Of a stretch of 64,000 bases of DNA, positions 7,787 to 17,253 are shown piece after piece (position 1 is the stretch's first letter; every line of letters starts with the position of its first letter). The position numbers and the translations under genes are program-made. The DNA comes from Pontibacter litorisediminis (lineage in GTDB: Bacteria; Bacteroidota; Bacteroidia; Cytophagales; Hymenobacteraceae). The notes under the pieces are model-generated. The model worked only from the letters and a program-made list of their open reading frames with translations, ran no database searches and was not told the DNA's origin. Where the stretch lies: positions 372,001-436,000 of the forward strand of contig NZ_JARDUA010000001.1 of assembly GCF_029360645.1 (NCBI RefSeq), given 5' to 3'.

Positions 7787-9730
7787 ATGAGCGAAATAAT
7801 ATTTGAACTGAAGCAGGTACAGGAACTGCTTAAGATAGAACAGGAAGAGGACCGCCAGCAGTACAAGATCAAAAGCCTGAAAAGCACCATAACTGAGCGC
7901 AAGGAGATGGGCTTCTGCTGGTATCCGGTCACCATATCCAAAGAAGAGATCGGCTTCGGCAACAAGGTGGTGGTGGAGCTGGAGCGCACTAAAGACCGTG
8001 ACCAGCTGCACCTGTTCCAGGTAGGCAAGACGGCCGCACTTTTTAGCAACCAAGGCGAGCGCCAAAGTATAAACGGGGTGATTGTGGGGCTAAAGCGCAA
8101 CAAGGTACAGCTGGCCACGAACCGTGAGGACCTTCCCGACTGGATTGACGAAGGGCGCCTGGGCATTGACCTCACCTTTGATGAAATGAGCTACCGCGAA
8201 ATGGAGATAGCCATGAAGAAGGTGATTGAGGCTTACAAAACTCGCCTGGCAGAGCTGCGCGACATCCTTCTGGGTGACATGCCGGCCCGTTTCACCGAGG
8301 CTACCATGAGCGATATCCCGGCGCTGAACCCCTCGCAGAACGAGGCGGTGCGCAAGATTGTGCAGGCCAAGGATGTGGCTATCATTCACGGTCCTCCGGG
8401 CACGGGCAAAACTACCACGCTGGTACAGGCTATCCTCAAAACGCTGGAGACACAGAAGCGTCTGCTGGTAACGGCTCCTTCCAATACGGCGGTAGATTTG
8501 CTGACCGAGAAACTAGCCAACGAGGGTGTGAACGTGATACGTATCGGTAACCCGTCGCGGGTATCAGACGTGCTGCTGGAGCACACGCTGGATGCGCAGA
8601 TCATGGAGCACCGGTCTTACAAGAACCTGAAGGATTTCCGGAAAACAGCAGAGGAGTATAAGCGCATGGCTGGGCAGTACAAGCGAAAGTTCGGCCATGA
8701 GGAGAGGATGCAGCGCCAGTTTTTCCGGTCCGAGAGCAAACGCTTGTTGGATGAGGCCGACCGTGTGGAGGAATACATTACGGAGGACCTGCTCAATAAC
8801 GTGCAGGTAATTACCTGCACCCTGGTAGGCGCGGCCAACAAAGCCATACGCCACCTGGAGTATGACACGGTGTTTATCGATGAGGCGGCGCAGGCGCTGG
8901 AGCCCGCCTGCTGGATCCCTATCTCCCGCGCCAAGCGCGTGGTGCTGGCCGGCGACCACTGCCAGTTGCCCCCTACCGTAAAATCGTTTGAGGCAGAGCA
9001 GAAAGGCTTGGGCAAGACATTGTTTGAAAAATGCATTGAGCGGCAGCAGGATGTTTCGGTGATGCTGAAGACGCAGTACCGCATGCACCACCACATCATG
9101 GAGTTCTCGAACCAGCAGTTTTACAAGGGTGAGCTGATGGCGCACGAGAGCGTGCACAGCAGCGATTTGCACCAGTACAACCCGCACTTCGCCCCTGGCC
9201 TGGCCGTGGAGTTTGTGGATACGGCTGGTTGCGGCTACAACGAGGTGGAGACGCCAGAGAGCACCAGCTCGGCTAACCCCGATGAGGCGAATCTGCTTCT
9301 CAACCACCTGGCGCACCTGCTCAAAGACTACAGCCATGCCGATGAAGAAGTAGAGCACCTGCGCATCGGGGTGATCGCCCCTTACCGCGCCCAGATCAAC
9401 TACCTGGAGGACCGCGTGGAGCACATGCCGCAACTGCACGAGCTAAGGCAACTGCGGCACCTGTCGGTGGGCACGGTAGACAGTTTCCAGGGCCAGGAGC
9501 GCGACATCATCTACATCAGCATGACGCGCAGCAATGAGCAGGGGGAGATAGGCTTTTTGGCAGACATGCGCCGCATGAACGTGGCCATGACAAGGGCCAA
9601 GAAAAAAATGGTCATTGTAGGCGACAGCGCTACACTTAGCCAGCACCCATTCTACGCGGCCTTCCTGAATTACGTAGAAAGTATACATGCCTACCGCAGT
9701 GCCTGGGAGCTGCAGGAACTAATGGCCTAA
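7787..9730 (+). CDS. Superfamily 1 helicase of the IGHMBP2/UPF1-like (AAA_11/AAA_12) group
   Basis: 647 residues. An N-terminal beta-rich region (about 1-180) precedes the helicase core: Walker A HGPPGTGKTT (about 201-210), Walker B FIDEAAQAL (about 363-371), motif III AGDHCQLPPT, QYRMHHHIMEFSN (motif IV region), VDSFQGQERDIIYIS (motif V) and MNVAMTRAKKKMVIVGD (motif VI). The DEAA box and arrangement match the eukaryote-like Upf1/SMUBP-2 branch found widely in Bacteroidota. It probably unwinds DNA or RNA 5' to 3', but its cellular job is unknown. The next gene is slyD. A terminator-like hairpin sits in its leader. Confidence 0.93.
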   Translation: MSEIIFELKQVQELLKIEQEEDRQQYKIKSLKSTITERKEMGFCWYPVTISKEEIGFGNKVVVELERTKDRDQLHLFQVGKTAALFSNQGERQSINGVIVGLKRNKVQLATNREDLPDWIDEGRLGIDLTFDEMSYREMEIAMKKVIEAYKTRLAELRDILLGDMPARFTEATMSDIPALNPSQNEAVRKIVQAKDVAIIHGPPGTGKTTTLVQAILKTLETQKRLLVTAPSNTAVDLLTEKLANEGVNVIRIGNPSRVSDVLLEHTLDAQIMEHRSYKNLKDFRKTAEEYKRMAGQYKRKFGHEERMQRQFFRSESKRLLDEADRVEEYITEDLLNNVQVITCTLVGAANKAIRHLEYDTVFIDEAAQALEPACWIPISRAKRVVLAGDHCQLPPTVKSFEAEQKGLGKTLFEKCIERQQDVSVMLKTQYRMHHHIMEFSNQQFYKGELMAHESVHSSDLHQYNPHFAPGLAVEFVDTAGCGYNEVETPESTSSANPDEANLLLNHLAHLLKDYSHADEEVEHLRIGVIAPYRAQINYLEDRVEHMPQLHELRQLRHLSVGTVDSFQGQERDIIYISMTRSNEQGEIGFLADMRRMNVAMTRAKKKMVIVGDSATLSQHPFYAAFLNYVESIHAYRSAWELQELMA

Positions 9731-9809: not shown

Positions 9810-10322
9810 ATGAAGATTGAAAAAAACAGCGTAGTCACGCTTACCTATGAGCTACGCATCATGGACGAGCAGGGCGAGCCTAATCTGATAGAAACAGCCG
9901 ACAAAGAGCACCCTATGGTGTTTATCTTTGGCATGAGCGGTCTTCCGGAGCAGTTTGAGGAGAAGCTGGACGGACTGTCGGCTGGTGATACTTTTGACTT
10001 TACACTGGACGCAGAAGAAGGCTACGGCAGCCAGGACGAGAATGCTATTGTGGACCTGCCAAAGAATGCGTTTGAAGTAGAAGGCGCTGTGCCTGAGAAC
10101 ATGCTGGAGATCGGTAATTTCATCCCCATGACGGACACCGAAGGCAATCAGTTGCAGGGCCGTGTGGTAGATGTGACCGCAGATACTGTGAAGATGGACT
10201 TCAACCACCCATTGGCTGGCAAAGCGCTCTCCTTCAAAGGCAAAGTGGAGAGTGTGCGTGAAGCTACCAAAGATGAGTTGGACCACGGCCATGTGCACGG
10301 CGAAGGTGGTGTACACCACTAA
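9810..10322 (+). CDS. slyD: FKBP-type peptidyl-prolyl isomerase, SlyD-like
   Basis: 170 residues, cytoplasmic (no signal peptide). The first FKBP strand is VTLTYELRIMDEQG. The family segment FIFGMSGLPEQFEEKLDGLSAGD (about 33-55) is followed by the inserted IF (insert-in-flap) domain, then DFNHPLAGKALSFKGKVESVREAT. The C-terminal tail is His-rich (DHGHVHGEGGVHH), shorter than in E. coli SlyD but likely able to bind Ni or Zn. It catalyses proline isomerisation and acts as a chaperone. TACCTTTC at 9777-9784 is a candidate -7 element, 25 nt before the ATG. A strong terminator follows. Confidence 0.93.
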   Translation: MKIEKNSVVTLTYELRIMDEQGEPNLIETADKEHPMVFIFGMSGLPEQFEEKLDGLSAGDTFDFTLDAEEGYGSQDENAIVDLPKNAFEVEGAVPENMLEIGNFIPMTDTEGNQLQGRVVDVTADTVKMDFNHPLAGKALSFKGKVESVREATKDELDHGHVHGEGGVHH

Positions 10323-10343
10323 GAAGCATTAACCTATACTACC

Positions 10344-10382
10344 AAAGGCGCGACAGAAGCTATTCTGCCGCGCCTTTCTATT
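10344..10382 (+). terminator. Terminator after slyD
   Basis: AAAGGCGCG(A)CAGAA and TTCTG(C)CGCGCCTTT form a long, almost perfect stem with a 4-nt loop, followed by CTATTTT. Confidence 0.88.
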
Positions 10383-10595
10383 TTGGTGCTTCCCTTCAAA
10401 CTTCATTCCCAAAGAAAGGCTTGAATAATAGCTGCATCATAAGTATTAATCAATTATTTTCTGAGGCTGCTTATCCTCTCTTACCACATCAGGCCCCACA
10501 GATGTTAACCCATATCCAGAGAGCTTCTCTCGCTAGCTCAAAACTGGCTTTTTGGCTAGTCCAGAGGAGGAAATTCTGCAGTTCCGGTTCCAACA

Positions 10596-10970
10596 CCCCC
10601 TGCCTCTCCTTGTATAAGGAGGGGAATTTGGCTGAAGCTCCGTAAGCGGTGGCTATCGAAATGATACCCAGTCTTCGGGTTGAGCGCCTATGCGAGTTTT
10701 TCCGGTGCCGAGCCGGAGGCGAGGCAGCCCGAGGCACGAGGGCAGGATAAGCTCCCAGCGCGATGCCCTTATCGAGGGCCCCTACCCCCAAGACGAGCCC
10801 TCTCGGGCTAGAGAGCACCAAAGCCAGAAGTGAGACGAGCAGGTTGTAAAGCCAGGGATGAACAGCAGCTAGTAAGAATAGCTTGCATCAAGTTGCAGAA
10901 AGCCGAGGCTATGAGAGGCACAAGCGGACGCTTGCGCCAGAAAAGACTTGCAGAGTGAAGTATAGCCCAT
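10596..10970 (+). repeat. Structured dispersed intergenic repeat, copy 1
   Basis: This block is homologous to the reverse complement of 16562-16990. Conserved blocks in the same order are: a CT-rich hairpin (10603-10624 versus 16982-16959); GCTATCGAAATG through GGGTTGAGCGCC (10652-10690 versus 16931-16893); CGCGATGCCCTTATCGAGGG through the CAAAGCCAG and ACGAGCAGG words (10758-10850 versus about 16830-16738); CAGCAGCTAG through TTGCAG (10862-10900 versus about 16729-16690); and GAGAGGCACAAGCGG through GCGCCAGA (10913-10941 versus 16620-16592). Small hairpins are preserved, including AGCCC-TCTC-GGGCT at 10796-10809. The open frames inside differ between copies, so it is unlikely to be coding. 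I do not recognise the element. Confidence 0.85.
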
Positions 10971-11210
10971 GTATAGGATATACCTTTTTCAGCCTCTCAG
11001 AAAAAAATCTGAGAGTATCGTAAGGCACGAGTTAAAAACTCGCGCCAGCGGAGGAGAGAATGAAAACCGCGTATCTGGAAATCCGCAGCAGAAAAGCTCC
11101 GGACAAGGATGTCCGGAATAGCTCGAATACTAATCCAAGAGAATAGCAAGCCACCGGCTATAAGCCCGCGTCAGCTATAACGAGCAGCCGCTGTAATAAG
11201 AGCACCTAAG
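10971..11210. other. Non-coding tail of repeat region with several perfect short hairpins
   Basis: No gene is seen. There is a row of hairpins: CTCTCAG/CTGAGAG (10994-11015), CGAGTT/AACTCG (about 11028-11043) and TCCGGAC/GTCCGGA (11098-11117). Copy 2 of the repeat also carries hairpins at the matching end but with other sequences (GGCTT/AAGCC, GCCGG/CCGGC). It may be part of the same structured element. Confidence 0.5.
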
Positions 11211-12392
11211 CTATACCTTAATCTCCACCCGCTTACCGGTATCAGCAGCCTCGTAAATTGCCTCCAGAATCTGTACATCCCGCAAGCCCATCTCGCCAGG
11301 CACGCGCGTTTCTTTGTTATCTTTAATGCATTGGGCAAATGCATCCATTTGGCGGGCCTGCTGGTTCACCTGGGGCAGGTTCATAGGCCCTTCACTGGTT
11401 TGGCCTTTTATGCCGGAATAGCTGTAAGCAGGCTCTAACCGCCACCAGCCCTTCGCCGCTTTGCCCGATAAAAGACCCGCATTTTCGTTATAACTGGTAC
11501 GGCAGTTAGCTTTGGCACCACTCGGAAACTCCAGCACCCACTCAATCGACTGCTCCACCTCATCAAAGTACTCCGGCCGCGTCACTTCCCCATACTTGGC
11601 AGTCACAGCTACCGGGTTCTCACCCATGGTATAAAGGGCGCCCTGCACGCAATAAATACCCAGGTCCATCAAGGGGCCGCCGCCCGCTAACTTTTTATCC
11701 AATCGCCACGCCTCAGGGTCGCCGCTGAACACAAAGCTGTCGGCAGCCTCTATCTCCTGCACCGGCCCATACACCTGCTGCTGCCCCAGCTCCATTACCC
11801 GCTGGTTGTGCGGCTCAAAGTGCAGCCGATACCCGATCGAGAGGCGCACCTTGTTTTCTTTGCAGGCCGCTATCATGCGGCGGCAGTCTTCGGCAGAGGT
11901 AGCCATGGGCTTTTCAGAGATGATGTGCTTTTTAGCTTTCGCCCCTCTTATGCTATATTCAGCATGCATGCTGTTGGGCAGCACAATGTAAATGATGTCG
12001 ATGTCCGGGTTATCGGCAATCCGGTCATAAGTGTCGTAGTTGTAGATGTTCTTGTCTGGAATGCTGTACTTGCGCTTCCACTCTTCGGCCTTGGAGGGCG
12101 TGCCGGTAACGATGCCGGCCAGATAGCAATGCTCTGTTTCCTGAAGGGCTGGTGCCAATTGGTTCGTGGCATATCGGCCCAAACCTACCAGGGCTATGCC
12201 TAGCTTCTTTTTTGGGGCAACCTGCTGCCCCGCCTGCTGCGCCTGTTCTGCGTTCTTTTCTGATCCGGACGATTGGCACGAGGCGGCAAATGAAACCAAG
12301 GGTAGGCCCATGGCCGTTGCCCCGAAGGCCAGCGATACTTCTTTTAGAAATCTGCGGCGGTTGTGCCGGAAAAGGAGGTTTGTCTGTATCAT
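11211..12392 (-). CDS. Gfo/Idh/MocA-family oxidoreductase with Tat-type signal
   Basis: 393 residues. The N-terminus has a twin-arginine motif (HNRRRFLKE) and a hydrophobic run ending FAASCQSSG, so the protein is probably exported folded with its NAD(P) cofactor, perhaps as a lipoprotein through that Cys. The Rossmann motif is GIALVGLGRYATNQLAPAL (about 64-82). The family EKP motif (ISEKPMATS, about 154-162) carries the catalytic Lys. The C-terminal alpha/beta domain includes GGGPLMDLGIYCVQGA. It resembles glucose-fructose oxidoreductase-type sugar dehydrogenases. The substrate is unknown. It is a single gene with the structured repeat on its downstream side. Confidence 0.9.
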   Translation of the reverse strand: MIQTNLLFRHNRRRFLKEVSLAFGATAMGLPLVSFAASCQSSGSEKNAEQAQQAGQQVAPKKKLGIALVGLGRYATNQLAPALQETEHCYLAGIVTGTPSKAEEWKRKYSIPDKNIYNYDTYDRIADNPDIDIIYIVLPNSMHAEYSIRGAKAKKHIISEKPMATSAEDCRRMIAACKENKVRLSIGYRLHFEPHNQRVMELGQQQVYGPVQEIEAADSFVFSGDPEAWRLDKKLAGGGPLMDLGIYCVQGALYTMGENPVAVTAKYGEVTRPEYFDEVEQSIEWVLEFPSGAKANCRTSYNENAGLLSGKAAKGWWRLEPAYSYSGIKGQTSEGPMNLPQVNQQARQMDAFAQCIKDNKETRVPGEMGLRDVQILEAIYEAADTGKRVEIKV

Positions 12393-12477
12393 AGCGATGT
12401 GCGCGAAAGTGTTTCTTCTATACTTCAGAAGTATAAGTAGAAGAAGATAAAAGGTTTAGCACACCGTCACCGCAGTT

Positions 12478-13062
12478 TTAAAGCTGCTCCTTTACCTCTG
12501 CCACATAACGCTCCAACTCCGGGAAGAAAACCTGAAAATCTGCCAGGTATAACTCATACTGCTCTACCAGTTCCTCGCCAGCCGTCTCCATACCTGATAC
12601 GAACTTAGTACGCCGGCTCATGCCCTCCAGTGCTTGCGCGATTCCGTGTACCTGGGCGTAAGACTCCAGCCAATTCTGGCGCTGCATGTAAGTAAACAGA
12701 TGCTGCACGCGCGGGGGCAAGATGCCATAGTGCCGCCGGATCAGGCCGTAAGTCTTTTGCACAAAATTACCTAGGGGCTCCCGGGCGTACTGCTCAAAGT
12801 TGCGGGCCAGGAAATGGTCGTAATACATATCGGCGATAACCGGAGAGAACTTTCTATACCTTGGGCGCAGACGGGCTTTAGTTTCAGCCACGATGGGGTG
12901 GGTGTCAGTATAGGTATCGATGAGGCGGTGCAGGTAAATACCCTTTGCTACGCCGGGTTCGTATTGCTCTGCCTGCCGGCCCTTCACTGCATCGGCGATA
13001 AAATTGCCCAGCAACAGCTCATCGTCTGTTCCGGAAAGGTAAATGTGTGCCAGGTAGTTCAA
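12478..13062 (-). CDS. acpH: Acyl carrier protein phosphodiesterase
   Basis: 194 residues matching the AcpH family from the first residue: MNYLAHIYLS, then GNFIADAVKG (about 20-29), GIYLHRLIDTYTDTHPIV (about 41-58) and FSPVIADMYYDHFLA (about 72-86), an HD-like metal site. AcpH removes the phosphopantetheine arm from acyl carrier protein. It is divergent from the gene at 13210, and the 147 bp between them must hold both promoters. Confidence 0.92.
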   Translation of the reverse strand: MNYLAHIYLSGTDDELLLGNFIADAVKGRQAEQYEPGVAKGIYLHRLIDTYTDTHPIVAETKARLRPRYRKFSPVIADMYYDHFLARNFEQYAREPLGNFVQKTYGLIRRHYGILPPRVQHLFTYMQRQNWLESYAQVHGIAQALEGMSRRTKFVSGMETAGEELVEQYELYLADFQVFFPELERYVAEVKEQL

Positions 13063-13209
13063 AAGGCTGTGTTAGGGTTAGGTGAAAAGTATAAACCGGC
13101 TGCTGCGCCTATTGTTTTAGCGCACTCTGCTAGACTTTAGTTGCAACGGGCGAGCCAGGAACCCTAAGCCGTAGAGCCGCGTAATCAAACACAAACAAGA
13201 TATAAAGCT

Positions 13210-13710
13210 ATGAATAACGACCCAAATACAAAGGAAAACCTTTCCAAGCTGGTAGATAAGATAAAAGACGTAAAGATTGCCATGATGACCACGGTGGACG
13301 ATGACGGCACCCTGCGCAGTCGGCCCATGAAGACACAAAAGACAGAGGCTGACGGCGATTTGTGGTTCTTCACAGGCTTTGAGTCTGGCAAGTCGCACGA
13401 GATTGCGCACGACTCGCACGTGAACCTCAGCTACGCAGACCCGAACGATAACCTGTATGTTTCTGTGTCTGGAAGGGCACAGGTACTGCGCGACCAGCAA
13501 AAGATAGACGAACTCTGGAGTGCTGATATGAAGGCTTGGTTCCCGGGCGGCAAAGAAGATAAGAATATTGGCCTAGTGCGTGTCAGAATTGAGAAGGCAG
13601 AGTACTGGGACACCCCAAGCAACACCATGGTGACGCTGTTCGGCATGGTGAAGGCTGCCATTACCGGAGAGCCAGCCAAAGGCGGCGAAAACAAAAAAAT
13701 CAATCTGTAG
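13210..13710 (+). CDS. Pyridoxamine 5'-phosphate oxidase-like general stress protein (GsiB/Ydag-type, 'general stress protein 26')
   Basis: 166 residues in a split-barrel flavin-binding fold: KIAMMTTVDDDGTLRSRPM (about 21-39), DLWFFTGFESGKSHEI (about 50-65), VNLSYADPNDNLYVSVSGRAQV (about 70-91) and the C-terminal RIEKAEYWDTPSN segment typical of stress protein 26. It probably binds FMN or FAD. The reaction is unknown. The gene stands alone and has its own terminator. Confidence 0.88.
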   Translation: MNNDPNTKENLSKLVDKIKDVKIAMMTTVDDDGTLRSRPMKTQKTEADGDLWFFTGFESGKSHEIAHDSHVNLSYADPNDNLYVSVSGRAQVLRDQQKIDELWSADMKAWFPGGKEDKNIGLVRVRIEKAEYWDTPSNTMVTLFGMVKAAITGEPAKGGENKKINL

Positions 13711-13738
13711 TGTTACAGATATAAAAATCTCTCTGCAG

Positions 13739-13777
13739 CACCTGCCGAACATTTTGTTTTGGCAGGTGTTCTTTTTT
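13739..13777 (+). terminator. Terminator after the general stress protein gene
   Basis: CACCTGCC (13739-13746) pairs with GGCAGGTG (13761-13768), followed by TTCTTTTTT. Confidence 0.88.
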
Positions 13778-13795
13778 GAGAGCTACAAAAAAACA

Positions 13796-13803
13796 TACCT
13801 TTA
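13796..13803 (+). promoter_or_regulatory. Candidate -7 element (TACCTTTA) of the CrtA-like gene
   Basis: TACCTTTA is close to the Bacteroidota -7 consensus TAnnTTTG and lies 24 nt before the ATG at 13828, directly after the upstream terminator. I see no clear -33 TTG. Confidence 0.5.
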
Positions 13804-13827
13804 AGCATAAGCAGCATACAGAACCAC

Positions 13828-14559
13828 ATGCACATGCCCTCCCCCCGCCTCACCACCCTTACCCTGTTCGGTATCCGCAGCGGCCACATCCGTTGGGGCT
13901 TGGCCCAAATGGGTACCTCCGGCCCGAAATTGCAGCAGGTGCCTGGGCTAAAATTCTATAAGTTGCTGGGGAGCGGACACGGCAAAGGCTTTAGTATGAA
14001 GCCAAACTTCCGGCGCTATGGCATGCTGTGCACCTGGGAGAGTGAAGCTGCCGCCGATGCCTTTCTTCAGGAGTCTGAGTTGATGCAGGAGTACAGCACC
14101 CACACCGATGAGGCCTGGACTGTTAAGCTGCTTCCTTACCAAGCACATGGGCGGTGGGACGGGCAGGAGCCTTTCTCCCCCACCCTTCCTGATAAACATG
14201 AGAGCGGCCCCATCGCCGTCCTGACACGGGCAAGTATAAACTGGCTCGCCTTACCCAGCTTCTGGCGATTCGTACCTAAAACAAGTATCGCCTTGGATAC
14301 AGCAGAAGGCCTGATTTGCTCCATAGGCTTAGGCGAACTTCCTTTGGTGCGGCAGGCGACGTTTAGTGTATGGGAGTCGGGGGATGCGATGAAGGAGTAT
14401 ACCTATAAAAATCCGCTGCACCGGGAGGTAATGCGCCGCACCCGTGCCGAGAACTGGTACAGCGAAGAACTTTTCGCCCGCTTTAAACCCATCAGCAGCC
14501 ACGGCACCTGGGCTGGCGCGGACCCACTACAGCAGGTACTGGCGCAGGCGATTCTCTAG
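13828..14559 (+). CDS. Spheroidene monooxygenase (CrtA)-like protein
   Basis: 243 residues. CrtA-family marks are GLKFYKLLGSGHGKGFSMKPN (about 39-59, GSGxGxGF), RYGMLCTWES (about 62-71), GRWDGQEPF (about 110-118), GPIAVLTRASI (about 127-137) and the tail WYSEELFARFKP...GTWAGADPL. CrtA introduces keto groups at C-2 of acyclic carotenoids in phototrophs. In Cytophagales the homologues accompany pigmented, non-phototrophic strains, so carotenoid oxidation is a likely but unproven role. No other carotenoid gene is adjacent. Starts at 13828 or 13834 (ATG-CAC-ATG) are both possible. Confidence 0.85.
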   Translation: MHMPSPRLTTLTLFGIRSGHIRWGLAQMGTSGPKLQQVPGLKFYKLLGSGHGKGFSMKPNFRRYGMLCTWESEAAADAFLQESELMQEYSTHTDEAWTVKLLPYQAHGRWDGQEPFSPTLPDKHESGPIAVLTRASINWLALPSFWRFVPKTSIALDTAEGLICSIGLGELPLVRQATFSVWESGDAMKEYTYKNPLHREVMRRTRAENWYSEELFARFKPISSHGTWAGADPLQQVLAQAIL

Positions 14560-14887
14560 ATCATCCCTCTCAGATCAACAGGTTAAGCTTCAACCACTCT
14601 CCTTGCCTTCTTAAACACCCCACTACACCTACAGCAAAAGCGAAAAGTATTTGTGGGGGAAATATCTCGCCATCCTGCTCAAGCAAGCCAGTAAGTACAG
14701 GGCCACACAGCCAAAGCTCTGACAACGCCCCAAGTCCAACAATCCCATACAGCTCTTCAATTAATGGCCATGTGGATGTTATGTGTAATCAGGCGCTACC
14801 TTATTGGGCAAATGTTTGAAATGTTTCCATACCTTATCATGTGTTTACGGGACGCAGGAAAACTTAAGGAGGTGCAGGTTGTTAAAG
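14560..14887. other. 328-bp intergenic region without a recognised feature
   Basis: It lies between a plus-strand gene end and the end of a minus-strand gene. I see no convincing open frame, no T-run hairpin and no similarity to the structured repeat. Confidence 0.5.
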
Positions 14888-15610
14888 TCAGCTATGGTTC
14901 TTTTTCTTTAGCTGCTCCATAATGTCCTCTAATAGGTCTAGCTGCAGCTGCTGTATCTCTACCAGGTGCTGGTTCTGGTGCATCAGCAGGTGGTCTACCT
15001 TCTCGTGCAGCAGCCTGATCTCCAGCTCGGCCTTCAGGTTTACCTTATAGTCATGCTCGGACCGAAGTCGGTCTTTGGCCTCCTGCCGGTTCTGGCTCAT
15101 CATGATTATTGGCGCCTGTATGGCGGCCAGGCAGGAAAGTATAAGATTCAGTAGGATGAACGGATAAGGGTCGAAAGGCCTGGCAGCCAGCATGTACACG
15201 TTTACCGCCATCCAGAGCAGCAGAAATGAAAAGAAGAGGAGAATGAAGGTCCAGCTGCCGCCAAAAGTGGCTATACGATCGGCCATGCGGTCGCCGAGGC
15301 TTATCTGCTCCTTCAGGTTAGCCTCTACGTTAGAAGAGAGTAGCTCTTCCCGGTTTATGCTTCTCACCACCTCCTCTTCCAGCTCGGTTAGCTCACCCAG
15401 CTCCTGCCGCAACAGCCGTTCTAGGTATAATTTCCGGTACTTGGCCAGCACATCAGAGGCGACAAACTGCTCCTCGTCAAACTAAGGGTAGTCTGCCTGT
15501 ATCAACTTAAGCACACTATCCCGTATGGCTTTGCCAGGCACCAGCAGGTGCTGCGGCAGTCGTCTTTTTGTTATTTGGCAAAGGCCAAACGGCTCGCGGT
15601 GGTGGCTCAT
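14888..15610 (-). pseudogene. DUF1003 membrane protein gene interrupted by an in-frame amber codon
   Basis: Read from ATG 15610, the frame gives the N-terminal DUF1003 domain (LCQITKRRLPQHLLVPG...IRDSVLKLIQADYP, 42 residues), then TAG at 15484-15482, then FDEEQFVASDVLAKYRKLYLERLL without any frame change, on to the rest of DUF1003: GELTELEEEVVRSI, FGGSWTFILLFF (first TM) and LILSCLAAIQAPIIMMSQNRQE (second TM), stop at 14888. Both sides of the amber codon match the normal, continuous family layout. An open frame of 187 residues could still start at GTG 15451, lacking the N-terminal domain. Possible causes are a nonsense mutation (GAG to TAG would suffice), a sequencing error or readthrough. 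Confidence 0.85.
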
Positions 15611-15645
15611 AGGAAGGGATTGGGGCTTTTCGTCCTTCTACAGGT

Positions 15646-16323
15646 TTACTCCCCTGAAGGGTTTTGGTCTGGGGCCAACTGCTGCAACACACGCTCTAGG
15701 TGTGCTTTCATGCCATCGTAAGGCCTGTAGCCACGGCTAATAAGGTGGATGCTGGTACCGTTGAGCAAGTACAGGCTCGGGAATGCGGAGGCTTGCAGGT
15801 GACGGGCAATGGTGAAATCCTGCTGCGTTTTCTCCTTCATTTCCTCCGAGTGGTACTTCTCCAGAAAAGATTCTTCCTCCACGCCAAACGTAGACGCTAT
15901 ACTTGCCAGTACCTCGGGCTTTGTTACATCGTTGTTGTTTGCGTAGAAAGCGCTTTGTACCGCCTCCGCCATCTCAAACTCCTTTTCTGGCTGCAGGTAG
16001 CGCATGGTAACCACGGCACGGCAGCTAGGCTCGGTATCATAAACAAAATCCTCCCGATCAAAGAAAGTGTAGTCAAATGGCTGCTCGGTTATCTTCTCCA
16101 CATCCTGCCAGTGGTGCCGTATCCCCTCTTTCATTTGCTCCTCCAACGGCTTCTCCGTGCCGGGGCGCAAACCGCCCATAATCAGCTTAAATTGCATCTT
16201 TCCCTCCTGCTCTGCCACCAGCTGCTTGATTACCGGTGCAAAGCCATAGCACCAGGAGCACATCGGGTCCATCACATAGATCAGGTGGATGATATCCAGT
16301 AAGTCGTGTTTCTTCTGTTCCAT
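15646..16323 (-). CDS. DsbA-family (FrnE-like) thiol oxidoreductase
   Basis: 225 residues from ATG 16323. The thioredoxin-fold redox motif is MDPMCSWCYGF (CxxC, about residues 22-25), followed by the family signature KLIMGGLRPG and a late cis-Pro loop ASAFPSLYLLNG. No signal peptide is present, so it is cytoplasmic like FrnE and HCCA isomerase relatives. A longer frame runs upstream to 16431, but I chose 16323 because a -7 box (TACCTTTG) sits just before it and conservation begins there. It probably catalyses disulfide exchange or isomerisation. The substrate is unknown. Confidence 0.9.
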   Translation of the reverse strand: MEQKKHDLLDIIHLIYVMDPMCSWCYGFAPVIKQLVAEQEGKMQFKLIMGGLRPGTEKPLEEQMKEGIRHHWQDVEKITEQPFDYTFFDREDFVYDTEPSCRAVVTMRYLQPEKEFEMAEAVQSAFYANNNDVTKPEVLASIASTFGVEEESFLEKYHSEEMKEKTQQDFTIARHLQASAFPSLYLLNGTSIHLISRGYRPYDGMKAHLERVLQQLAPDQNPSGE

Positions 16324-16327
16324 GGCG

Positions 16328-16335
16328 CAAAGGTA
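16328..16335 (-). promoter_or_regulatory. -7 promoter element TACCTTTG abutting the dsbA-like start codon
   Basis: On the minus strand the sequence is TACCTTTG-CGCC-ATG. The box matches TAnnTTTG exactly and only 4 nt separate it from the start codon, so transcription is expected to begin at or next to the A of ATG (leaderless mRNA). Confidence 0.65.
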
Positions 16336-16473
16336 GAAATTTGGTGGATTTATACTTTGTTTTACGAGGAAGCCAAGGTTCATGTAATGGGTAAATGGAA
16401 TGGGACTTACAGCCATTCGGACGTTACCCAAACGTTTTTTAGGTGTGTTTTATCCTAGCGTATGTGTCCGCTA

Positions 16474-16497
16474 GTGACAATTTCATTTTCTTGTCAC
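16474..16497. repeat. Perfect inverted repeat GTGACAA-N10-TTGTCAC
   Basis: Arms are 16474-16480 and 16491-16497. A second small inverted repeat, CTAGC (16455-16459) with GCTAG (16470-16474), overlaps its left end. It is about 150 bp upstream of the dsbA-like gene and near the edge of repeat copy 2. It could be an operator or part of the repeat element. Confidence 0.5.
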
Positions 16498-16561
16498 AGG
16501 CCTGGAGAATCTTTGTACTACAGTAGCGCCGGCTCTCCGGCTTAACTGGCTTGAAAAGCCA

Positions 16562-16990
16562 TACATATACTTTGGCTATACTTTATACTTCTCTGGCGCA
16601 AGCCTCCGCTTGTGCCTCTCTTAGTTTCTGCTCCCGCTGCCTAAACTGAGTTTGTAGCTCGTGCTTTCCCTATTGCAACTGCTTCCTGCAATCTGAACCA
16701 AGCTGTCCTTGCTAGCTACTGCTTATCCATAACCTTACCACCTGCTCGTTTCATCTCTGGCTTTGGCTCCCTCCAGGCCGGGAGGCCTCGCCTTGGGGGT
16801 AGGGGCCCTCGATAAGGGCATCGCGCGGTGTACATTTCCTTTGCTTGACCTGCGGTCTCCGCAATTTCGCTAAAGCGAAACCGTAAATCTACAAGGCGCT
16901 CAACCCAAAGGCTGTGTAACATTTCGATAGCTACTTGCTATGCAACATGAACCAAGCTCCCTCTCCTGTTTTTAGGAGAGGGCTGGGGTG
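16562..16990 (-). repeat. Structured dispersed intergenic repeat, copy 2 (inverted)
   Basis: This is the reverse-complement homologue of 10596-10970, with the same order of conserved blocks but diverged, and with about 60 bp extra (about 16622-16680) that copy 1 lacks. The CT-rich hairpin is CCCTCTCCT/AGGAGAGGG at 16959-16982. The small hairpin matching AGCCC-TCTC-GGGCT of copy 1 here reads AGGCC-TCCC-GGCCT (minus strand, 16788-16775), so one C-G pair has become G-C while pairing is kept. The rest of the gap to leuS (16991-17253) holds low-complexity AT words (AATTTAACAATCC, AACAATTAACAATT) and no gene. Confidence 0.85.
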
Positions 16991-17253
16991 AGGTGAATCC
17001 CCTCCTGGGCGGAGTTGGGGTGGGTCTATACTTCTGCTGACACTTCGCCTGTTGCCATGAAACTTATACTTTGCAAAAAGCATACTCCTGCCTTTCTACT
17101 CCAGGTGAAGCCTAACCTTCTTCCCGAAATAAGAAGCACCAAAACCGCTCCACCGCCCGCGATTTACATTTTAGCCATTCCGCAATTTAACAATCCAACA
17201 ATTAACAATTATCTTAGCAGCTTAACTAGGAACAAGCGAACACACGATACACT

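Follow-up and report, generated by a model that had tools for sequence, protein, structure and literature searches.

In the sections of the literature drawn on here, the systems closest to the element described below belong to two classes. Mobile/repeat sequence candidates (MRSCs) combine a covarying structure with dozens of copies per genome and are thought to be selfish, whether in RNA or DNA form being left open (PMC11109978). Genes for transposases, integrases, nucleases or helicases often accompany members of the class. One such member, MRSC-65-2, comes from diverse phyla and consists of one long stem with a UYCCGG repeat, located in some instances near a transposase gene (PMC11109978). 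REPs are palindromes of 20-40 bp, lying mostly between unidirectional and convergent genes and beside their RAYT gene (PMC3116915, PMC3733652).

The element reported here from Pontibacter (Hymenobacteraceae, Cytophagales in the NCBI taxonomy) shares covarying structure and multiple copies per genome with the MRSCs. It differs from MRSC-65-2 in being a rod with a junction and a pseudoknot, in having been searched for and found within its order only, and in having no transposase among the neighbours searched; the gene association typical of MRSCs was not found, one DeaD RNA helicase being present among ten ORFs beside copies in genera g3 and g6 (the latter Rufibacter). Like REPINs, it is non-autonomous and intergenic, occupies mostly tandem and convergent gaps, carries palindromes at its ends and is present in each genome as a population, whereas its core of about 200 nt with a pseudoknot lay beside none of 15 RAYT genes and displayed no replication-strand bias. 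Short palindromes of 20-40 bp, single or in inverted pairs as in REPs, do not describe this core, and inverted pairs of whole cores were found in g3. Of the features of DDE-transposon MITEs, terminal inverted repeats were not visible by eye and target-site duplications gave no signal in 17 Rufibacter copies. The element is best placed beside mobile/repeat structured nucleic acids and REPINs, with a more complex anatomy and no match in the libraries searched. With moderate confidence, it is regarded as a new non-autonomous, probably selfish, dispersed structured-RNA repeat acting through its fold, for which we infer transcription and a mobiliser.

The window (the whole stretch of 64,000 nt analysed here, from Pontibacter litorisediminis) contained two copies of the element (Table 1). 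The original prediction of a diverged repeat in two inverted copies was confirmed by BLAST of 10590-11010, which matched 16990-16681 (71.7% identity over 310 nt) and 16624-16548 (74.4% over 86 aligned columns) on the opposite strand and in the same order; a separate repeat search of the window listed these blocks among its inverted repeats (I1, I2, I3 and I7). The range first given for copy 1, 10596-10970, did encompass the repeat unit, but its outer parts (10596-10650 and 10942-10970) were end modules rather than core. Genes neighbouring the two copies were ordinary and mutually unrelated: an FKBP-type isomerase and a GFO/IDH/MocA oxidoreductase for copy 1, a DsbA-like protein and a leucyl-tRNA synthetase for copy 2.

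Table 1. Positions in the window of the two element copies and of their structural parts. E-values of the covariance models R1 and R2, here and in the text, are rough.
Feature	Position	Strand	Evidence or remark
Copy 1 repeat unit (GGCTATCGAA box to 3' hairpin)	10651..10941	+	Unit ends from pairwise matches of 99 genome copies
Copy 1 structured core	10667..10866	+	Covariance model R1, 163.5 bits, E 1.9e-42; copy 1 (L001) in R1 training set
P1 5' strand GTCTTcGGG, partner 10786-10794	10671..10679	+	96.5% of cells paired; two-sided changes in 7/8 pairs
P2 5' strand GCGC, partner 10758-10761	10684..10687	+	99.5% paired; all 4 pairs changed on both sides in some copies
P3 5' strand (GAGTTTTTCC module), partner 10745-10754, one mismatch in copy 1	10694..10703	+	Alternative modules change on both sides together
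P4 hairpin TGCC...GGCA	10706..10726	+	96.0% paired; two-sided changes in 4/4 pairs
P5 hairpin GCCC...GGGC (other copies TTGC...GCAA)	10727..10743	+	Three pairs: UA 56/GC 48, UA 54/CG 40, CG 55/GC 44
Nested ~20-nt mini-repeat between P2 and P1	10766..10785	.	Edges ambiguous by a few nt
P6 hairpin AGCCC-TCTC-GGGCT	10796..10809	+	98.6% paired
Pseudoknot C10802-T10803-C10804 (P6 loop) with G10813-A10814-G10815	10802..10815	+	96.5% paired
3' hairpin GGCACAAGCGGACGCTTGCGCCAG	10918..10941	.	Same position in the majority of 31 aligned copies
Copy 2 repeat unit	16593..16931	-	BLAST and alignment
Copy 2 structured core	16718..16916	-	R1, 142.8 bits, E 8.1e-37; copy 2 outside R1 training set
Copy 2 P6 (AGGCC-TCCC-GGCCT) and pseudoknot partner GGG	16768..16788	-	Sequence and 111-copy alignment
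Stretch missing from the orthologous site in G020 (17 nt there): element and flanking palindrome arrays	10378..11216	.	

The unit, of about 200-265 nt, is a rod of three helices (P1-P2-P3) capped by the hairpins P4 and P5, which close the junction, and followed by an H-type pseudoknot (P6/PK). P1 pairs GTCTTTGGG with CCCAAGAC, P2 pairs GCGC with GCGC, and the sequence of P3 consists of alternative modules, each matched on both sides of the stem. P6 is a hairpin of 4-5 bp whose 4-nt loop covaries too, pairing with a GAGA, GGGA or GCGA just downstream to form the pseudoknot, a part that the original prediction did not include. The compensatory change that had drawn attention to this stem (AGCCC-TCTC-GGGCT at 10796-10809, AGGCC-TCCC-GGCCT at 16788-16775) was present and was one among many, the middle pair of P6 (264-299) being GC in 80, CG in 18, UA in 4 and GU in 2 of 108 rows with letters, and unpaired in 4. 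The phenomenon is larger than first reported.

This fold is almost certainly genuine and conserved. In 43 copies aligned without structure (alignment A1), 90.4% of the cells were paired, and two-sided changes numbered 122 against 42.6 after shuffling. A1 retained 43 of 53 prepared stretches, nine copies from the P. litorisediminis genome and L044 being omitted for balance and to avoid the nested insert; L021 and L028 (no motif match), L038 (second anchor failed) and L046 and L061 (skipped) had been left out beforehand. In 111 copies from four genera and one outside the family (alignment A2, drawn from 98 sources among the window and 237 loci), standard pairs occupied 91.2% of 4,075 cells, a count into which the sequences used to draw the structure also entered. 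Two-sided changes amounted to 703 against 225.7 in shuffled alignments, and the covariation score was 0.451, compared with 0.149; in 500 shuffles the observed value was never reached. With partners slid along the alignment, pairing fell to 38-49%. The 111 copies were fitted to a model containing P1, P2, inner P3 and P4-P6, so that the counts for outer P3 and the pseudoknot, both absent from that model, are free of fitting bias. Inner P3 was paired in 90.4% of cells and outer P3, the weakest helix, in 65.5%, and the middle pair of the pseudoknot was GC in 57, CG in 36 and UA in 11 of 105 copies.

Within the helices, G-T combinations were much more frequent than A-C ones (84 against 15 among 3,390 cells), and the strand that folds is therefore a single one, named + here. 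Folding of one strand fits RNA, and would also fit single-stranded DNA (ssDNA) of one strand; that the element acts as RNA is supported, not proven. Predicted minimum-energy folds of both window copies recovered only part of the model, which counts against the explanation favoured here. Copy 1 was predicted to misfold with its nested insert and, once the insert was removed in silico, to form P1, P2, P6 and most of P3, with P4 and P5 not as modelled; for copy 2, P1, P2 and most of P3 were predicted, a different hairpin replacing P6.

Proposed as a conserved hairpin, GCCCT-tatcg-AGGGC turned out not to belong to the conserved RNA, and corresponds to a nested mini-repeat of about 20-24 nt (GGGGGTAGGGGCCCTC-n-ATAAGGG or its complement; 10766-10789 in copy 1 and about 16818-16799 in copy 2). 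It occupied one fixed place in 40 of the 99 copies from the same genome, was found in none of ten copies from the closest relative (G020), and was missing from most rows of other species in A1. In other species, mini-repeats occupied different loops or joints of the RNA, in both orientations (L118, L119, L121, L043, L044, L057).

Among the 99 copies of the P. litorisediminis genome, 8,302 pairwise matches were obtained, most commonly starting 21-30 nt before the core motif (3,161 matches) and with 4,704 of them ending 200-249 nt after it. Of 104 pairwise matches between Rufibacter copies, 78 started 1-20 nt before the motif and 75 ended at 180-199 nt, with weaker conservation up to about 250 nt; the Rufibacter unit ends in CAGCACAAGCGGACTA, similar to the 3' hairpin of copy 1. 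From these start and end points, which define the unit ends to about 10 nt, the repeated unit approximates the folded RNA plus a 3' tail. Terminal inverted repeats were not seen by eye, and the flanks of 17 Rufibacter copies scored like mispaired flanks for target duplication (2.12 against 2.17). Flanks often contained further palindromes of several kinds, some of them like those adjoining RAYT genes. Arrays of several kinds of small palindromes flanked copy 1 (10378-10595 and 11020-11210) and were missing together with it from G020.

The core 15-mer, allowing up to one mismatch, had 109 matches in the 5.0-Mb P. litorisediminis genome (97 of them exact), compared with one for a reversed control. 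In a comparison of copy 1 with that genome, the best 40 of 156 candidates matched, copy 1 itself included, the other 39 being 72-87% identical to it. Because no two of the 99 copies were more than 0.93 identical, no fresh burst of copying is visible, a point against the favoured explanation. The exact 15-mer occurred in 37 of 148 genomes, P. litorisediminis included; 32 of the 50 Pontibacter genomes carried it, with 0 to 129 copies each, and some genomes with a count of 0 contained diverged copies. Outside the genus, five single exact matches were obtained, of which L034 was a homolog by profile. A motif pattern matched at least 111 stretches of named genomes among the matches listed, all in Pontibacter or Rufibacter, the two genera from which the pattern was derived.

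Covariance model matches were found in 69 of 204 genomes of the family, in four of six genera, and in 43 of the 50 Pontibacter genomes (P. litorisediminis included). The element is thus known in Pontibacter (g1), Rufibacter (g6) and two further genera; in the three genera other than Pontibacter, 16 genomes displayed from 20 to at least 70 matches, such genome-wide counts coming from the best-scored candidates only and being lower bounds. A second model, R2, was built from the 111 copies and matched 37 of 390 genomes of the order at an E cut-off of 0.05, ten of them outside the family. These were located in family f11 (G099, G359, G366 and G479, one match each), f19 (G107 and G412), f5 (G141, five matches) and f15 (G312, two matches), while the matches in G434 and G097 (E 0.01-0.03, calculated for one genome with 390 searched) were at chance level.

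Whole-window comparison with Rfam 15 at gathering scores gave no match. With E up to 5, Rfam matched nothing over the core in 10300-17200 and nine loci of other genomes, group II intron domain V and intron core included; the 3' tail of copy 2 (16627-16692) gave a chance-level mir-1202 score of 20.1 bits (cut-off 80, E 3). FopS (RF04319), a paralogous sRNA family whose name implies several related RNAs per Bacteroidetes genome, had its sole match at E = 3.9 and outside the element (L195, 1695-1756). Phage and plasmid collections (blastn) and IMG/VR (exact pattern) yielded no match. A shared coding frame was considered and rejected, as the 3' part of copy 1 can be read as codons and stops interrupt the frame in other copies (by eye).

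No title or abstract opening retrieved in literature searches, whose broad result sets were sampled in part, dealt with the Pontibacter element. Pontibacter combined with noncoding RNA returned a genome announcement (PMC6742788) and an alga genome, and combined with repetitive extragenic a plant review. The main texts of PMC11109978 and PMC8632094 name neither Pontibacter nor Hymenobacter, and an unnamed motif in their supplements could be the element.

That the window holds an undescribed structured element, as originally proposed, is supported by the abundance of the motif, by covariation far above the shuffled and slid controls and by the fact that the core matched no Rfam family. An element that is spread over four genera, reaches 129 exact motif copies in a genome and has no Rfam 15 match represents a large gap in the catalogue, and the range of copy number within one genus offers a natural experiment in which presence and absence could point to a protein partner. 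The element would also open two questions on bacterial repeats to ordinary tools: do the structured ones work in RNA form or as single-stranded DNA, and by what route can non-autonomous ones spread, and remain similar, with no transposase nearby?

Copies were strongly oriented with respect to genes. The upstream ORF was co-oriented with the copy in 79 of 99 placed copies from the P. litorisediminis genome. Of all 99, 37 lay in convergent and 7 in divergent gaps; in tandem gaps, 42 copies were sense and 13 antisense (p 1e-4), with similar results at other ORF cut-offs. These counts cover 99 of 101 loci (L021 and L028 unplaced) and follow ORF length rules rather than annotation. Sense and antisense copies in tandem gaps numbered 26 and 8 at other Pontibacter loci, a set including one P. 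litorisediminis locus (L051), and 12 and 4 at loci of named genomes (p 0.08 alone).

IS200/IS605-type ssDNA elements display a lagging-strand orientation bias. Here, 17 of 38 copies were sense on the leading strand (p 0.63), which indicates no bias in the two genomes considered (skew from 20 samples each); the count included 26 of 28 positions in G001, where two close to the origin were omitted and 27 of 34 exact matches were among those listed, and 12 G030 positions among the matches listed. Lagging-strand insertion was ruled against by this absence of replication-strand bias, and the orientation pattern favours an effect of transcription over such insertion. In the explanation favoured here, read-through from the upstream gene would transcribe the element, and a trans-acting factor would recognise its fold. 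The fold would then be needed for the element to be copied, or for one copy to overwrite another, so that structure would be kept as sequence drifts.

The same data bear on the possibility that the conserved fold is one of ssDNA, like that of REPINs or the ends of IS200/IS605, and that a RAYT-type Y1 (HUH) transposase moves the element. Genomes with many copies did tend to encode such enzymes: Y1_Tnp was found in 43 of 50 Pontibacter genomes, the seven without it all having 0-2 copies, and its abundance followed the exact-motif count (Spearman 0.54, ignoring ancestry, which relatives share). More than five model matches were found in 37 genomes of the genus, all with Y1_Tnp, and seven of the 13 others lacked it, which is a correlation only. 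The absence of a target-duplication signal in Rufibacter and the resemblance of the end palindromes to those beside RAYT genes point the same way. However, R2 had no match to the core at E up to 1 in 15 RAYT neighbourhoods (2.8-3.0 kb, four genomes), the strong bias was one of transcription rather than replication, and a pseudoknot with a junction is far more complex than a REP hairpin. This origin is accordingly considered improbable. RAYT as the cognate transposase was rejected, the association being a correlation without any flanking counterpart. Pontibacter genomes carried several distinct RAYT-like Y1 transposases, many of them beside a palindrome family of their own, such as GGCACGAGCTGCAAGCTCGCGCCAGCGG (L469, L474, L482, L478, L480).

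An autonomous master copy was sought among inverted or close pairs and contig-end copies from g3, g6 and one Pontibacter. Of the ten ORFs beside the g3 and g6 copies, eight were ordinary host genes, of the EamA, pyrophosphatase, amidohydrolase, VWA, FixG-like, DeaD RNA helicase, TPR and GrpE families, and two had no family; neither transposase nor nuclease was among them (Pfam). Ten ORFs of the window region likewise contained no transposase; a helicase-like AAA gene (7787-9727) did not adjoin a copy.

HEARO, the omega RNA of IscB, is a pseudoknotted multi-copy RNA linked to mobile elements, and its family is included in Rfam. By this parallel, a pseudoknotted multi-copy RNA without an ORF could be an omega RNA, the guide scaffold of a TnpB or IscB nuclease, left orphaned in dispersed remnants of IS605-like or HEARO-like elements. 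Rfam searches at E up to 5 gave no HEARO match for the Pontibacter element, and the Pfam survey of its ten neighbouring ORFs revealed no nuclease, making such a scaffold very unlikely.

An RNA-like unit with a sense-orientation bias and without visible terminal inverted repeats would fit retroposition by a resident reverse transcriptase. RVT_1 (E <= 1e-5) was absent from seven of the ten genomes with at least 80 exact copies, and this candidate was rejected. The RVT_1-free genomes included P. litorisediminis and the one- and two-contig assemblies G030 and G020, some others being drafts, and reverse transcriptase and motif counts were uncorrelated (Spearman 0.005, ignoring ancestry). Retroposition is contradicted for an RVT_1 enzyme encoded there today and is held to be extremely unlikely overall. 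Neither target duplication, a resident reverse transcriptase nor a neighbouring transposase explains the element.

Sites were gained or lost between species. Both flanks of copy 1 aligned with locus L062 of G020, up to 10377 (82.6% identity) and again from 11217 (79.7%), the 10378-11216 stretch being reduced there to 17 nt. At a second site (A), the element was present in G015 and G016, a short gap in G011, G014, G040 and G048, another short sequence in G009, G028, G047 and G005, and a different neighbour in G010 and G003. At a third (B), it was present in G010 and G015; the stop codon ran straight into the terminator in G009, G028, G014 and G016 and nearly so in G047 and G005, about 45 nt were found in G011, a longer unrelated stretch in G003, and related palindromes without the core in G048 and G040. 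The original choice between an RNA gene family, a non-autonomous mobile element and a regulatory repeat was only partly settled by this gain or loss of sites.

A role as a domesticated 3'-UTR RNA must be weighed against these observations. Each copy would then serve its mRNA through stability, processing, small-RNA release or protein binding, and host selection would keep the fold copy by copy. Copies did lie downstream of genes in sense orientation with a structure kept over 111 aligned copies, and six of ten G020 copies, chosen among the highest-scoring ones and compared with 101 P. litorisediminis loci, were at common sites, a long residence that leaves room for a host function. One match per genome was also obtained in four f11 genomes (of seven candidates scored in each; in G099, also one of the best 70 scored), matches that are not independent because the f11 copy L204 from G099 was in the R2 training set. 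In three close genomes (L204, L494, L495), the architecture was kept with largely different sequence, and the start codon of a 473-aa gene common to all three, with a twin-arginine-like leader (by eye), lay 46-68 nt beyond the end of the structured part. A single f11 copy close upstream of the same gene fits a resident cis-regulatory RNA and is not decisive. Against a host role stand the spread in exact motif matches between genomes of a single genus (0 to 129), the absence of copy 1 and of the copies at sites A and B from sister genomes, the ordinary and unrelated neighbours of the window copies, and the existence of a relic with a broken helix (L119, one copy in G016, in which a nested insert breaks P6). 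Domestication is thus judged rather unlikely, and the selfish repeat remains the preferred reading.

At the six common sites, cores were 0.63-0.77 identical between the two genomes, ranking 64th, 20th, 52nd, 85th, 58th and 19th of 99, while the same G020 cores had a mean identity of 0.74-0.84 to other G020 copies. Cores at orthologous sites therefore resembled each other hardly more than randomly chosen copies do, or no more. P3-P5 cassettes and some P6 types differed between the members of common-site pairs, with stems changed on both sides, and the 20-nt insert was present in four of the six P. litorisediminis copies and in none from G020. At one site (L286/L315), the upstream flank was 80-95% identical as far as the core, where such identity ended; at most other common sites the intergenic flanks were unalignable as well, and replacement of the whole gap or repeated insertion into the same gap is possible. 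The argument for replacement in place comprises six sites, two of them ranking 19th and 20th of 99.

A bolder version of the selfish repeat, considered doubtful, is a bacterial selfish RNA without its own reverse transcriptase or transposase, whose spread would be coupled to transcription and whose copies would be overwritten in place, P3-P5 cassettes being exchanged between conserved anchors. If so, about 100 diverged and structurally equivalent RNAs would persist as a population in each genome. The portions of the REP and MRSC literature consulted do not describe bacterial repeats that move or are homogenised in this way. In two copies (L007 and L030), the 5' and 3' modules of P3 were of different types, as recombination would give.

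Head-to-head inverted pairs of cores, a few hundred nt apart and resembling a giant REPIN, were seen in g3 and some Rufibacter (L219, L218, L223, L193). In one g3 genome (G064), three contigs each had a copy of the element (L220, L221, L222) 240-470 nt from their start and were 84-90% alike there; from these contig starts, a longer repeat may surround some copies.
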